DNA from: Geothrix sp. | GTDB lineage: Bacteria; Acidobacteriota; Holophagae; Holophagales; Holophagaceae | DNA length: 64,000 bases | Direction: 5' to 3' | NCBI RefSeq assembly: GCF_030219325.1 | Contig: NZ_CP126625.1 | Span: 3,646,857-3,710,856 of the forward strand | Shown here: positions 8,955 through 20,211 of the stretch, one piece after another | How positions within the stretch are numbered: the first letter of the stretch is position 1 | Layout: each line of letters starts with the position of its first letter | Notes under the pieces: generated by a model | What the model was told of the DNA's origin: nothing | The model's database searches: none | Seen by the model: only the letters and a program-made list of their open reading frames with translations | Program-made: the position numbers and the translations under genes

Positions 8955-9674
8955 ATGTCCGAGCCCAAGATCCTGCTGGTGGAAGACGAGCTCAGCCTCG
9001 CCGAGGGCATCAAGCTCAACCTGGAGCTGGAAGGGCTCGCCTGCACCTGGATCCCCCGTGGGGACCAGGCCCTGAAGCAGATCCTGGCCGAGACCTACGA
9101 CCTGGTGATCCTCGACGTGATGCTGCCCGGCATGGACGGCTTCACCATCTGCGAGAAGGTGCGCGAGGCCAAGAACTTCACGCCCATCCTCTTCCTCACG
9201 GCCAAGAACACCGACGATGACCGCGTCCACGGCTTCGAGACCGGGGCCGACGACTACCTGGGCAAGCCCTTCCAGGTGCGGGAGCTGCTGCTGCGGGTGA
9301 GGGCCATCCTGCGCCGCGAGTCCTGGTACAAGAGCCGCGAGATCAGCAGCCGGCAGCCCTTCGGCCCCTACTGGGTGGACTTCGACAATTTCTGCGGCGA
9401 GGGCCCCGGCGGCGCCTTCCAACTGGGCGTGAAGGAATCCATGATCCTGAAGCTGCTCATGGAGCGGCCGGGCCAGGTGGTGAGCCGCACCGACATCCTG
9501 GACAAGGTTTGGGGCGAGGACGCCTACCCCACCAGCCGCACCGTGGACAACTTCATCGTCCGCATCCGCCGCGTGATGGAGGACGACCCGCACCACCCGA
9601 AGTGGGTCCACACCATCCGCAGCGTGGGCTACCAGTTCGATCCCGAGGGGAAGCAGCGCAAGGGCGAGGAGTAG
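8955..9674 (+). CDS. OmpR/PhoB-family response regulator (orphan)
   Basis: A 239-residue DNA-binding response regulator. The receiver domain (about 4-118) has acidic residues at 10-11, phospho-acceptor Asp54 in LVILDVMLPGMDG, and the TAK and GKPFQ signature residues. The winged-helix domain (about 135-230) contains the RTVDNFIVRIRRVME recognition-helix region and IRSVGYQF. No histidine kinase gene is adjacent, so its partner is encoded elsewhere. It is divergent from the glycosyltransferase gene and 99 bp upstream of a small outer-membrane barrel gene, which may be a target or a separate unit. Confidence 0.88.
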   Translation: MSEPKILLVEDELSLAEGIKLNLELEGLACTWIPRGDQALKQILAETYDLVILDVMLPGMDGFTICEKVREAKNFTPILFLTAKNTDDDRVHGFETGADDYLGKPFQVRELLLRVRAILRRESWYKSREISSRQPFGPYWVDFDNFCGEGPGGAFQLGVKESMILKLLMERPGQVVSRTDILDKVWGEDAYPTSRTVDNFIVRIRRVMEDDPHHPKWVHTIRSVGYQFDPEGKQRKGEE

Positions 9675-11561: not shown

Positions 11562-13952
11562 TCACGCCTCGACCGGAGTCTCTAGCAGTCGCTCAAGACT
11601 TTGCTTGAGCTGCTTTAGATCGAAGGGCTTACCCAGGTACGGCACCTGGCTTGCCTCCAGGAATTCGCGGGTCTTCGCGTCGAAGGCATCCCCGGTGGTG
11701 TAGAGGATCCGCTGCGTCATGACCGGCCGATGGGCCTTGAGCCACTCGAAGAGATCCATGCCCGATAGGCCCGGCATCCGGATGTCGGACACGATCACAT
11801 CGAAGCTGCCGGATTCGAGGCTCTGGATGGCCTCGTCGCCCCGGGTGCTGGAGGCGACCTCCAGGCCCCAGGCGCCCAGGGCATCCACGAGGCACTCGAG
11901 AAGGAAGGCTTCGTCGTCCACCACGAGGGCGCGCGCCCCCTTGAGTCCCCTGGGCGCGGCCGCAGGCGCGGGGACCTGTGACGCCGGGGGCAGCACCACA
12001 CTGGGCAGTTCGAGCAGGAAGGCGTTTCCCAGGCCCTCCTGACTGCGGGTGCTGAGACGGCCGCCGTGCTGCCGGACGATGATGTCGGCGATGGGCAGGC
12101 CCAGCGCCTCGGTGGTCGTGGCGTTGGCCGCGTCGAACAGCCCCGCCTGCTGGGCCTCGCCGAGGGCCGTGCCCGTGTCCTGGACCACCACCTGCAGGGC
12201 CTCGCCGCTGGTCCGGGTCGCCACCCGCAACCGCTTCATGGGGCTGAGCGCCATGGCCTGCAGGCCGTTCAGCAGGAGGTTGGTGAGCGCCTGCACCATG
12301 AGCCCGGGATCCACCGCGGTCATGGGCAGCGCGGGATCCAGGTTCAGCTCCAGGGAGACGCCCATCCGCTGGGCCTTGGCCTCCACCAGGGAGATCGACT
12401 CCTGCACCAGCAGGTTCAGCTGCGCCGGCAGGGGCCTGGCGCTGGGTGGATTGAGGACGGTCAGCAGGGGATGGAGCAGCGTCTGGATGGAGTCCACCGC
12501 CTTCACCAGCCGCGAGGCCTGCTCGGCCTGGTGGGGATCCATGGCCGATTCGGCGAGCAGCCGCGACTCCAGGAGCACGGGGGTGAGGCGGTTGGCCACT
12601 TCGTGGAACAGCGACGGAACCAGGCGGCCCAGGGCCTCGTGCTTCTGCGAGTGCACGAGCCGGTCCTCCAGGTCCTTCTGCTCGCTCATGTCGCGCACGA
12701 GGGCGGAGTAGGCCAGCACCCGGTCTTCGGTCCCGCGGACCGGCGCGTAGGTGATGTGGGCCGGAAACGCGAGGCCCCCCTTGCGGAGCCGCGTGGTGAC
12801 CATGTCCCGGATCACCTGCCCGCGGCCGATCTGCTGCGCCACCTGGTCCAGCTCACCCAGCAGGTTGTCCGGCGTCAGCTGGGCCATGTTGCGCCCGACG
12901 ATCTCGGGGCGGGAGTAGCCGAAGATGCGCTCCGCCGCCATGTTCCAGGTGAGGATCTTCCCGTCCGGGGAATACGAGATGACCGCCTCGCCGATGTTCT
13001 GCACGAGGCCTTCCAGATACTTCCGGGTCTTGAGGTTGTCCTGGTTCGCGCGATCCAGCTGGGTGTAGAGCTGGCTCAGCTCCTCATTCTTCTTCTCGAG
13101 CGTGTCCTTGGCCTGCTTCAGCTCGGAATAGAGCCGCGCCGTCTCCATGTTGGACTTGAGGGCGTCCTCCAGCAGTTCCTGCGCGTCGGCGACCTTGCCC
13201 GGAACCAGGTCCGCCACGCTGACGTTGCTGTGGCGCAGGACCGTGGACTCCACGGCGGGGGCCAGGGGCGCGTCCTGGGGCGGCGGGAGCTCCCGCATGC
13301 TGGAGCGCACGTTGGACTCGATGAGGTTCAGCATCTCGTCGAAGTCCTTGATCTTCTTGTCCAGGTGGTACTTCTTGAAGGTGTAGCCCACGGTCTCGCG
13401 GGTGATGGACAGGAAGGTGTCCAGCACGCCGTTGCCGCGGTTGGCCACGGATTCGAAGTAGGGCACGCTGCGGAAGTTCAGCCGGCGGTTCATGACGCCC
13501 ACGGCCATGGCATCCGGAAGGTCGCGCTTGTTGTACTGGATGACGAAGGGGATCTGCTTGATGTTCAGGCGGTTGGCGTTGAGGTTGTGGTAGAGGTTCG
13601 ACAGCGAGTCCACGTTGTCCTGCATCTTCTCTTCGCTGGAATCCGCCACGAAGACCACGCCATCGGCCCCGCCCAGCACCACGCGGCGGCTGGCGTCGTA
13701 CTGCACCTGCCCCGGCACCGTGTAGATCTGCAGGTGGATGGCGTTGCCGTAGATGTAGCCCAGATTGATGGGCAGCAGGTCGAAGAAGAGGGTGCGGTCC
13801 TCCTGGGTGTTGACGGAGAACATTTCACCGCGCTGCTGGTCCGAGCACATGGCGTGCAGGGATTGCAGATTGGTCGTCTTTCCCGACAGGCCTGGCCCGT
13901 AATAGACCAGCTTGAGCAGGATCTCATTGGCACGGGTATTGAACTGAACCAT
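11562..13952 (-). CDS. MglA-type GTPase / PAS / histidine kinase / receiver fusion protein
   Basis: A 796-residue cytosolic protein joining a small Ras-like GTPase of the MglA class to a hybrid sensor kinase. The GTPase (about 1-195) has P-loop GPGLSGKT (19-26), the MglA switch TVPGQ (78-82) and base-binding NKRD (141-144). A coiled coil (about 255-310) links to a PAS domain (about 312-425). The kinase region has candidate phospho-acceptor His450 in SLFHEVANRLTPV, an N box (about 553-567) and a degenerate G1 box (DTGTALG, with GLPIADIIV as G2). A receiver domain (672-790) has Asp679/680, phospho-acceptor Asp723 and Lys775. The P-loop and NKRD are intact, so the GTPase should bind nucleotide. 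It could couple GTP state to phosphorelay and possibly to polarity or motility. There is no membrane segment. Confidence 0.9.
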   Translation of the reverse strand: MVQFNTRANEILLKLVYYGPGLSGKTTNLQSLHAMCSDQQRGEMFSVNTQEDRTLFFDLLPINLGYIYGNAIHLQIYTVPGQVQYDASRRVVLGGADGVVFVADSSEEKMQDNVDSLSNLYHNLNANRLNIKQIPFVIQYNKRDLPDAMAVGVMNRRLNFRSVPYFESVANRGNGVLDTFLSITRETVGYTFKKYHLDKKIKDFDEMLNLIESNVRSSMRELPPPQDAPLAPAVESTVLRHSNVSVADLVPGKVADAQELLEDALKSNMETARLYSELKQAKDTLEKKNEELSQLYTQLDRANQDNLKTRKYLEGLVQNIGEAVISYSPDGKILTWNMAAERIFGYSRPEIVGRNMAQLTPDNLLGELDQVAQQIGRGQVIRDMVTTRLRKGGLAFPAHITYAPVRGTEDRVLAYSALVRDMSEQKDLEDRLVHSQKHEALGRLVPSLFHEVANRLTPVLLESRLLAESAMDPHQAEQASRLVKAVDSIQTLLHPLLTVLNPPSARPLPAQLNLLVQESISLVEAKAQRMGVSLELNLDPALPMTAVDPGLMVQALTNLLLNGLQAMALSPMKRLRVATRTSGEALQVVVQDTGTALGEAQQAGLFDAANATTTEALGLPIADIIVRQHGGRLSTRSQEGLGNAFLLELPSVVLPPASQVPAPAAAPRGLKGARALVVDDEAFLLECLVDALGAWGLEVASSTRGDEAIQSLESGSFDVIVSDIRMPGLSGMDLFEWLKAHRPVMTQRILYTTGDAFDAKTREFLEASQVPYLGKPFDLKQLKQSLERLLETPVEA

Positions 13953-14075: not shown

Positions 14076-14109
14076 CGATGACCGTCCCGACCCATGTCGC
14101 GATCATTAT
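14076..14109 (+). repeat. First copy of duplicated uppS start region
   Basis: A 34-bp block containing ATG (14078) and the first ten uppS codons (MTVPTHVAII). It is repeated 106 bp downstream at 14182-14215 with a single mismatch (G at 14101, A at 14207). From this ATG the frame stops at 14174-14176 after 32 codons, so this copy cannot produce the enzyme but could be a short leader ORF. Confidence 0.9.
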
Positions 14110-14113
14110 CTCG

Positions 14114-14132
14114 GTATGCCCTCCGGGCATAC
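14114..14132 (+). repeat. Short perfect hairpin between the two uppS start copies
   Basis: GTATGCCC, a 3-base loop, then GGGCATAC: an 8-bp perfect stem. It lies inside the 72-bp segment separating the duplicated blocks and would form in the leader RNA of uppS. Its origin and role are unknown. Confidence 0.7.
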
Positions 14133-14181
14133 TCGAGGCCGCCCACGCGGACTTCCCTGGCACTTCGGGCCTTTAGGCACA

Positions 14182-14215
14182 CGATGACCGTCCCGACCCA
14201 TGTCGCAATCATTAT
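14182..14215 (+). repeat. Second copy of duplicated uppS start region (functional start)
   Basis: This copy matches 14076-14109 at 33 of 34 bases but continues into the conserved IMDGNGRW motif, so the ATG at 14184 is the productive start. The Shine-Dalgarno match before it is poor (only AGG, about 6 bases upstream). Confidence 0.9.
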
Positions 14216-18071: not shown

Positions 18072-19430
18072 TCAGGCCCTCGGGAAATAGACCCGGAAGG
18101 TGGCACCCTTCCCGGGCTCGCTCTCCACCTGGATGGCCCCGTGGTTCTGCTTCACGATGCCGTGCACCGTGGCGAGGCCCAGCCCCGTCCCCCGGCCGGC
18201 GGGCTTGGTGGTGAAGAAGGGCTCGAAGATCCGCTCCACCAGCTCCGGCGCCAGGCCGCAGCCGCTGTCCGCGACGCTCAGGCAGACATGGTCCCCCGGT
18301 TGGATCCCCGGCAGGATGGCGCAGTCGGCGTCGTCCAGGGTGCGGTTGGCCGTGGCCACCTCGATGCGCCCCCGGCCCGCGATGGCATCCCGGGCGTTCA
18401 CCACGAGATTGGTCAGCACCTGGTCCAGCTGGGTGGGGTCCATCCGGACCTCCCAGAGGGAGGGCGCCACGGTCCACACCAGCCGGATCTCGGGACCCAC
18501 CAGCCGCCCCAGCACCCCCTGCATGCCCGCCACGGAGAGGTTCAGGTCCAGCAGGCAGGGCTCCACCGGCTGCCGGCGTGCGAAGGCCAGGAGCTGGCGG
18601 GTGAGGTTCGCCGAGTGGCGGGAGGCCCGCTGGATCTCCTCCAGGTACTTCCGCTCCGGCTGGACCTGGGGCATCTGGTAGAGGGCCAGGTCGGCGTTGG
18701 CCAGGATGACGCCCAGCATGTTGTTGTAGTCGTGGGCGACGCTGCCCGCGAAGCGGCCCACCAACTCCATCTTCTGGGCCTGCTGCAGCTGGGCCTCGAG
18801 GCGGGCCTGCTCGGCGACCATGCGGTGGTGCTCGGTGATGTCCCGGCCGATGCCAAGTACGCCGGTGAGCCGGCCCTCCGCGTCGTACATGGGCGTCTTG
18901 AGGGTCTCCAGCAGGATCTCCTGGCCGGTCTCCGCCAGGGTGACCCACTCCTCGTTCACTCGCGTCTCCCCCGCGGCGATGACGTCCCGGTCCTTCTGGC
19001 GGAAGAAGTCGGCCAGCTCCCGGGAGACGAAGTCATGGTCCGTCTTGCCGAGGATGTCGGCCTCCTTCGCCCCGAAGAAGCGCTCGAAGGCCCGGTTGCA
19101 GCCCAGGTACACGCCCTCGGGGTCCTTCAGCCAGACCAGGTCGGGGATGGCGCGGAGCAGGGACTGGAGCCGGGCCTCGCGGCTGGCCACCTTGTCCACC
19201 AGGCGCCGGACCATGACGAAGAGCATGATCGCGGTCACGGCCACGAAGAACCAGCCCTTCAGGATGCTCACCAGGGTCATGGTGGCCGGGTCCTGGATCA
19301 GGGCCTCCACCACGCGGTCCGACAGGAGGATCCATAGCCCGGAGAACCCGGCATAGAGGAGCACCACCCGGAACGCCCCGGCGGTGCTGGAGGCGCCGCC
19401 CTTCGAATGGATCTGGATCGGTTCGGACAT
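18072..19430 (-). CDS. PAS-domain sensor histidine kinase
   Basis: A 452-residue sensor kinase. Two membrane segments (about 20-37 and 53-74) flank only a short periplasmic loop. A PAS domain (about 85-200) opens with SREARLQSLLRAIPDLVWLKD. The HisKA region has His233 in GSVAHDYNNMLGVI, and the ATPase domain has an N box (LTNLVVNARDAI), DSGCGLAP and GRGTGLGLATVHG. The HDYNN form is typical of NtrB-like hybrid kinases, but no receiver follows. The ATG on the complement of 19428-19430 is preferred: AGGAG lies upstream and the longer frame reads as non-coding Cys/Arg-rich sequence. It lies 55 bp downstream of the LytTR regulator gene on the same strand. Confidence 0.88.
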   Translation of the reverse strand: MSEPIQIHSKGGASSTAGAFRVVLLYAGFSGLWILLSDRVVEALIQDPATMTLVSILKGWFFVAVTAIMLFVMVRRLVDKVASREARLQSLLRAIPDLVWLKDPEGVYLGCNRAFERFFGAKEADILGKTDHDFVSRELADFFRQKDRDVIAAGETRVNEEWVTLAETGQEILLETLKTPMYDAEGRLTGVLGIGRDITEHHRMVAEQARLEAQLQQAQKMELVGRFAGSVAHDYNNMLGVILANADLALYQMPQVQPERKYLEEIQRASRHSANLTRQLLAFARRQPVEPCLLDLNLSVAGMQGVLGRLVGPEIRLVWTVAPSLWEVRMDPTQLDQVLTNLVVNARDAIAGRGRIEVATANRTLDDADCAILPGIQPGDHVCLSVADSGCGLAPELVERIFEPFFTTKPAGRGTGLGLATVHGIVKQNHGAIQVESEPGKGATFRVYFPRA

Positions 19431-19485
19431 GGGGCGCGCGGCTCCTGCGAAGATCCTACGCCCCATGGCGTGCCTTAAGGCACCC

Positions 19486-20211
19486 TCAGAGCCCCAGCAG
19501 CTCCTTGATCCTGGGCGTGACGCTGCGGCTGACCTCCAGGTCCAGCCCCTCCGCCACCCGCACCGAGGCCCGGCCGCCCTCCAGGGGGCGCAGGCCCAGC
19601 ACGGCCTCGGGCCGCAGGAGCAGGTGCCGCTGGATGCGCAGCAGTCCCGCCCCGGGGAAGGCACCCTCCACCTCGGCCAGGGTGGTCCAGGAGGTGCGGT
19701 GGCGGCTGCCGCCAGCCCAGGCCCAGACCACCTCCTCCTCCACCTCGAAGTGGGTGGTGCGTTTCAGGTCCAGGAAGACATGACCCTCCCCGGCCTTCAC
19801 CGGGAAGCGCTGGGGGAGGGCCGCCGGGGCCTCGCCGCGCCGCAGGCCCCCCTCCCGCAGCCGGGCCAGGGTCTTGGCCAGCCGTTCGGCGGAGATGGGC
19901 TTCATGATGTAGTCCACGGCCGCGGCTTCGAAGGCCCGGACCGCGTGCTCCGAGTGGGCCGTGACGAAGACCACCGGCGGGCAGTGGCGGCAGTCCCCCA
20001 GCTCGGCGGCCACCTCGAGGCCCGTGGCCCCGGGCATCTGGATGTCCAGGAACAGCGCGTCCACCTCGCGGGGCTCCTGCAGCCAGGCCAGCACCGAGGG
20101 GCCGTCCGCCAGCTCCGCCCTCACGTCGCAGCCGGCCTCCCGCAGCAGCCGCGCCAGCCGCGCCCGCGCCAGGGGCTCATCATCGGCCAGGGCCACCCGC
20201 AGGCTCTTCAT
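19486..20211 (-). CDS. LytTR-family response regulator
   Basis: A 241-residue response regulator of the LytR/AlgR class. The receiver domain (1-120) has acidic residues at 10-11, phospho-acceptor Asp56 in ALFLDIQMPG, TAH and IMKPIS. A LytTR DNA-binding domain (about 138-241) follows, recognisable from the HRTSWTTLAEVEGAF and LLRIQRHLLLRPEAV segments. Its ATG overlaps the stop of the LytS-like kinase gene (4 bp), which marks a cognate pair. Targets are unknown. Confidence 0.92.
   Translation of the reverse strand: MKSLRVALADDEPLARARLARLLREAGCDVRAELADGPSVLAWLQEPREVDALFLDIQMPGATGLEVAAELGDCRHCPPVVFVTAHSEHAVRAFEAAAVDYIMKPISAERLAKTLARLREGGLRRGEAPAALPQRFPVKAGEGHVFLDLKRTTHFEVEEEVVWAWAGGSRHRTSWTTLAEVEGAFPGAGLLRIQRHLLLRPEAVLGLRPLEGGRASVRVAEGLDLEVSRSVTPRIKELLGL

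Follow-up and report, generated by a model that had tools for sequence, protein, structure and literature searches.

The minus strand of the window, a 64,000-nucleotide stretch of the genome (3.73 Mb, single contig) of the soil bacterium Geothrix sp., encodes a protein in which an MglA-type GTPase is joined to a long helix, a PAS domain, a degenerate histidine kinase core and a receiver. We propose, with about even confidence, that it works as a GTPase switch of the MglA family that has PAS and receiver as inputs of its own, and in which the kinase core acts as a scaffold and probably as a phosphatase. The open reading frame runs from 13952 to 11562 (796 codons) without an internal stop, in agreement with an earlier note on this DNA that had placed all four parts in one frame. 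The same uninterrupted frame is found in about 48 orthologues, which excludes a chance or sequencing fusion. Assembly and frameshift artefacts are ruled out on the same grounds, and chance motif matches by the profile and PDB matches. The features are as follows.

11562–13952, minus strand: entire gene, coding for 796 aa from MglA GTPase through helix, PAS and degenerate DHp/CA to REC; open frame, also in the orthologues
13383–13952, minus strand: MglA-type GTPase domain, residues 1–190; PDB MglA matches, E about 1e-55
13875–13898, minus strand: P-loop G19PGLSGKT26; invariant, 49/49
13707–13721, minus strand: switch II T78-V-P-G-Q82, MglA-type Thr and catalytic Gln, M. xanthus MglA numbering; invariant, 50/50
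13521–13532, minus strand: base-binding motif N141KRD; invariant, 50/50
12996–13184, minus strand: continuous 63-residue helix, residues 257–319, with the conserved segment LLEDALKSNMETARLYSEL; AlphaFold2 model
12690–13019, minus strand: PAS domain, residues 312–421; Pfam PF00989, E 5e-13
12438–12662, minus strand: degenerate HisKA-like DHp helices, residues 431–505; alignment, and structural match to HK DHp-CA
12591–12605, minus strand: H450-E-V-A-N454, acceptor-position His and phosphatase-type Asn; N454 in 47/47 and H450 in 33/47 REC bearers
12003–12437, minus strand: degenerate HATPase (CA) domain, residues 506–650; Pfam PF02518 over residues 547–650, E 5e-11
12165–12179, minus strand: degenerate G1 box D592-T-G-T-A596; Gly at 596 in 0/48
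11565–11942, minus strand: receiver, residues 671–796, active site D679, D680, D723, T752 and K775, 47/47; Pfam Response_reg over residues 675–785, E 2e-19
8955–9674, plus strand: OmpR-type response regulator, a possible partner; Pfam Response_reg and Trans_reg_C

The Pfam check suggested by the earlier note recovered PAS, HATPase_c and Response_reg at significant levels but not HisKA (E 7.9); the whole-kinase models AtoS and ZraS align across the HisKA-like region. The protein looks soluble, as the earlier note had described it: no transmembrane-like segment was found, and no 19-residue window exceeds 1.46 on the Kyte-Doolittle scale. In the AlphaFold2 model the CA domain is predicted to fold well, still as a CA domain. 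The GTPase part is poorly modelled (pLDDT 25–50) because the orthologues are too alike in this region, leaving the domain arrangement unreadable, and we therefore read no domain-domain contact from the model.

The GTPase domain and the stand-alone MglA system

Residues 4–186 match M. xanthus MglA (6h17/5ymx) with a numbering offset of zero. The P-loop, TVPGQ and NKRD motifs, already noted as intact, are present together with Arg53, Thr54, Thr78 and Gln82, and all are invariant among the 49–50 orthologues covering them. In MglA, Arg53 is the intrinsic Arg finger and Thr54 the switch-1 threonine (PMC6876712). Invariant positions make up 78% of the GTPase in the alignment of 50 orthologues, compared with about 30% in PAS and REC and 5–7% in DHp and CA. 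Across 14 genome pairs, the fused GTPase (0.93–0.98) is as well conserved as the stand-alone MglA that these genomes also encode (0.89–0.97), and its dN/dS is 0.02–0.05 (0.025 near the window). By sequence, the GTPase is thus constrained and active-looking. A published survey of Ras-like GTPases in prokaryotes excluded every sequence longer than 240 aa (PMC4316618), so that the whole class of long fusions was set aside; our protein, with its further domains, exceeds this single-domain limit, and since the limit is a size filter, the MglA family is assigned here to the domain and not to the whole protein.

The fusion gene does not adjoin mglB. An MglB-like gene was nevertheless found elsewhere in the genome, as the earlier note had suggested checking: a strong Robl_LC7 match lies at genome position 528747, beside a stand-alone mglA at 529491. 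A second, weak Robl_LC7 match is located at 3532054 (L002), away from any mglA, and three PilT-family genes exceed the cut-off. The same genome encodes further MglA-type GTPases with long C-terminal tails at 635895 (L005, 290 aa) and 1414360 (L006, 447 aa). Tails of this kind have no Pfam match beyond the GTPase, and several end in strand-like stretches. Long-tailed proteins (relatives L093, L097, L111 and L116–L124) occur commonly across Acidobacteriota and do not belong to the sensor-fused clade described below.

The kinase-like core and the receiver

The earlier note described the kinase as complete apart from a degenerate G1 box. The latter was confirmed: DxGxG is replaced by DTGTA, and its second Gly is found in none of 48 proteins. 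The former does not hold, since the G2 box (GxGxGL) is missing as well (TEALGL with a short lid; no member has GxG) and the core is degenerate across the family. The Mg-binding Asn, N562, is present in the window protein and lost in 19 of 47 REC bearers; it changed at least seven times on the tree. The acceptor H450 is found in 33/33 members of the Geothrix-side clade, including the window protein, and is replaced by N, D or T in 15/15 members of the sister clade. A check for joint loss of H450 and N562 had a single independent pair to draw on. As a control we used a neighbouring PAS-kinase encoded at 18072–19664, matched in divergence (DHp plus CA identity 61–79%, similar to that of the fusion's kinase core); all 13 genomes compared retain its H, N, G1 and G2 boxes in full. 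Near the window, dN/dS is about 0.10 for PAS, DHp and REC and 0.19 for CA; values of 0.10–0.26 for CA indicate purifying selection. A domain kept for a non-catalytic role shows such a pattern. The core is probably not a working kinase, and we infer that autophosphorylation has been lost.

In structural comparison the CA domain matches HK cores, and the Caulobacter pseudokinase DivL (4q20), which keeps the DHp-CA fold with altered catalytic residues as the fusion does, is among the tied best matches. The top rank is shared with ordinary kinases, so the likeness is a resemblance only, and we dropped it as functional evidence. DivL is a polarity protein and is not known to carry a GTPase.

The coupling of GTP state to phosphorelay signalling in the earlier note is supported insofar as GTPase and two-component domains share one chain; a GTP-gated kinase feeding a phosphorelay is not. 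Such a working hybrid histidine kinase, in which the GTP-bound MglA domain would trigger autophosphorylation of H450 and transfer to its own receiver and onward, would agree with the conservation of H450 and of E451 (31/33) in the Geothrix-side clade, with D592 and N562 in the window protein and with the intact kinases of related fusions in other families. It is unlikely, however, given that the G1 and G2 glycines are lacking in every relative, that N562 is lost in 7/33 proteins even within the H450-keeping clade, that the sister clade combines perfect receivers with no acceptor His, and that an equally diverged true kinase loses none of these residues.

All five REC active-site residues are complete in 47/47 distinct REC-bearing proteins. 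In 14 of these 47 the acceptor His is missing, so these intact receivers can obtain no phosphate in cis from that site, and the receiver is more likely phosphorylated from outside than by its own kinase core. All 47 REC bearers retain N454, and all five relatives without REC have lost it; the latter form one clade, so the correlation amounts to a single event. In HisKA proteins, the H-box T/N residue is needed only for phosphatase activity (PMC3510030), and the N454 pattern fits a DHp domain kept to act on the receiver. The REC-less clade (L041, L042, L045, L052 and L054), from which N454 has also gone, keeps N562.

The retention of H450 and E451 on the Geothrix side runs counter to a pure scaffold, and phosphotransfer or residual kinase function is possible there. 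The protein could also be a phosphotransfer hub, with the receiver phosphorylated in trans and H450 acting in an HPt-like manner, handing phosphate to a separate regulator or taking it from one; the OmpR-type protein at 8955–9674 would be a candidate. Invariance of H450 in a clade without a competent CA domain and conservation of this regulator in the neighbourhood speak for such a hub; yet the sister clade lacks the His and keeps the receiver, and the synteny may reflect no more than a stable order of genes, which leaves this reading improbable. We favour the GTPase switch with PAS and receiver inputs.

Distribution and the wider class of sensor-fused MglA proteins

A scan of 84,980 species (one genome per species), in which only close relatives are matched, returned 51 distinct loci, 49 of them with the fusion. 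Nearly all of these are labelled Geothrix, Holophagaceae or Acidobacteria, and one record is labelled Deltaproteobacteria. Both the frame and the gene neighbours are preserved among the roughly 48 orthologues of the Holophagaceae (Acidobacteriota). In the phylum sample, the long fused frame is found in 33 of 39 Holophagaceae genomes, and the rest include one contig-end fragment and one shortened GTPase-PAS form. G182 and G316, two Holophagaceae genomes of 1.2 Mb that belong to the same genus and are apparently reduced, have no MglA-type GTPase match. A search of plasmids gave a single match, a Deinococcus GTPase.

The genes uppS-cdsA-dxr-rseP lie divergently upstream in conserved order. On the downstream side, most loci of sufficient length carry the OmpR-type regulator (74–97% identity across loci) and a glycosyltransferase. 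Upstream of uppS, at window positions 14079–14184, lies a mini-ORF of 32 codons (MTVPTHVAIIISVCPPGILEAAHA...) in which the first ten UppS codons recur, followed by a strong hairpin, CTCGGTATGCCC-TCC-GGGCATACTCGAG; no Rfam match was obtained. It is single-copy in the window genome, and relatives (L007, L009, L022, L043, L047, L048, L050 and others) carry 0 to 3 tandem copies with a period of about 107 bp. The stop overlaps the next start in several units, and the N-terminus of each unit tends to follow the same genome's own UppS. These mini-ORFs look like an expanding array of leader ORFs before an essential gene.

The earlier note treated the fusion as a single oddity. It is instead one branch of a phylum-wide class. 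Many MglA-type GTPases of Acidobacteriota sit within long frames, of which sampled members were checked with Pfam. HATPase-MglA fusions are found in nine families outside Holophagaceae (f3, f5, f8, f18, f26, f31, f35, f45 and f76), where GAF usually replaces PAS. In several fused relatives (e.g. L094, L098 and L152) the H, N, G1 and G2 boxes are of textbook form. Family f2 consists of GTPase-PAS and family f6 of GTPase-GAF only, and the existence of GTPase-PAS-only members within the class (L089 and L090) shows that the kinase part is dispensable. In the GTPase-domain tree, 29 sensor-fused proteins split from stand-alone MglA with support of 100/100, and a second group with unrelated C-terminal tails is also split from the sensor-fused clade (100/100). 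Many fused members carry the helix motif LL..A[LV].[SA]N[MV]..A.L beyond the GTPase, and the LLEDALKSNMETARLYSEL segment also recurs in other sensor-fused MglAs. The window's branch (f1, f2 and f3) has PAS as the partner and a kinase that is absent or degenerate; in f3 the His is already lost in one of two close relatives (L088 versus L092). In a further genome, two adjacent diverged MglA-type genes lie on one strand (G051:C58:1207–1746 and 1856–2392), with 40–44% identity to M. xanthus MglA.

Relatives with intact kinases have their enzymatic output at the C-terminus, and in actinobacterial conservons a roadblock protein forms one system with a GTPase and a kinase (PMC13343842). Both observations would suit a GTPase that serves as input, sensing GTP/GDP or an MglB-like regulator, with receiver and PAS as a protein-binding output. 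Against this, conservation is by far highest in the GTPase, where no catalytic residue is missing, and some relatives have no receiver or even no kinase part but still have the GTPase; we give such an arrangement little credence and retain the GTPase switch driven by PAS and receiver as the preferred model.

Proposed mechanism and related systems

In the model that we favour, a cytoplasmic PAS domain and the receiver would set the state or placement of two GTPase domains through the long dimerising helix and the decayed kinase core. The helix and DHp would hold the two GTPase domains together, and PAS and phosphorylated REC would alter this arrangement and thereby the state, place or partners of the GTPase. 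The kinase core would not phosphorylate itself; it may form the dimer scaffold and, via N454, probably helps to dephosphorylate the attached receiver, the phosphate of which would come from another kinase or a small phosphodonor. Signalling would thus run towards the GTPase, the presumed output on grounds of sequence conservation, which may act on effectors as MglA does. The end effect would be polarity or pilus control, probably an MglA-like output on polar or pilus machinery.

MglA of M. xanthus and Thermus thermophilus, to which the fused GTPase is homologous over its full length with the G motifs and the four key residues at the same numbering, works with the GAP MglB and the RomR/RomX exchange factor. 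In M. xanthus, it is also regulated by the receiver-domain proteins RomR, FrzX and FrzZ (PMC6785124). By contrast, the fusion holds GTPase and receiver in a single chain along with PAS and a degenerate kinase, its gene is not beside mglB and its GTPase lies in a clade apart from stand-alone MglA. Conservons, or AGPS (CvnA kinase, CvnB roadblock, CvnC and CvnD GTPase), likewise combine an MglA-type GTPase with a histidine-kinase-like protein and involve a GAF domain through CvnF (PMC13343842, PMC4316618). However, their components are encoded individually within one operon, the kinase (CvnA8) is active and there is neither fusion nor receiver, and the four-gene cvnA-D operon is absent at the fusion locus, where the neighbours are uppS-cdsA-dxr-rseP and the regulator/glycosyltransferase pair. 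Finally, PAS-HisKA-HATPase-REC hybrid kinases share the domain order of the C-terminal two thirds of the fusion, which differs from them in lacking the catalytic boxes and in having an N-terminal GTPase. Work on how phosphorylation signals act on bacterial Ras-like GTPases has reportedly concentrated on Myxococcus, in which each part is a protein of its own. Closest to the fusion in logic are the conservons, with separate GTPase and kinase (PMC13343842), and the MglA-RomR pair.

Our literature searches, with subscription papers and domain-architecture indexes outside their scope, found no description of the fusion or its architecture, and the class of sensor-fused MglAs, which is widespread in Acidobacteriota, is apparently undescribed. 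More tentatively, and short of even confidence, we suggest that Acidobacteriota may hold an ancient class of one-protein switches joining G-protein and two-component signalling, with MglA connected by a conserved helix to GAF or PAS and, in many cases, to a histidine kinase. In Holophagaceae the kinase would have decayed to a GTPase-linked phosphatase or scaffold, a receiver would have been gained and phosphorylation would directly set the GTPase of the same chain. The kinase-intact, kinase-decayed and kinase-less forms within one lineage constitute a natural series on the purpose of the kinase part. The fusion would provide a direct link between two types of signalling switch in bacteria, and their presence in one polypeptide makes the coupling directly testable in vitro.
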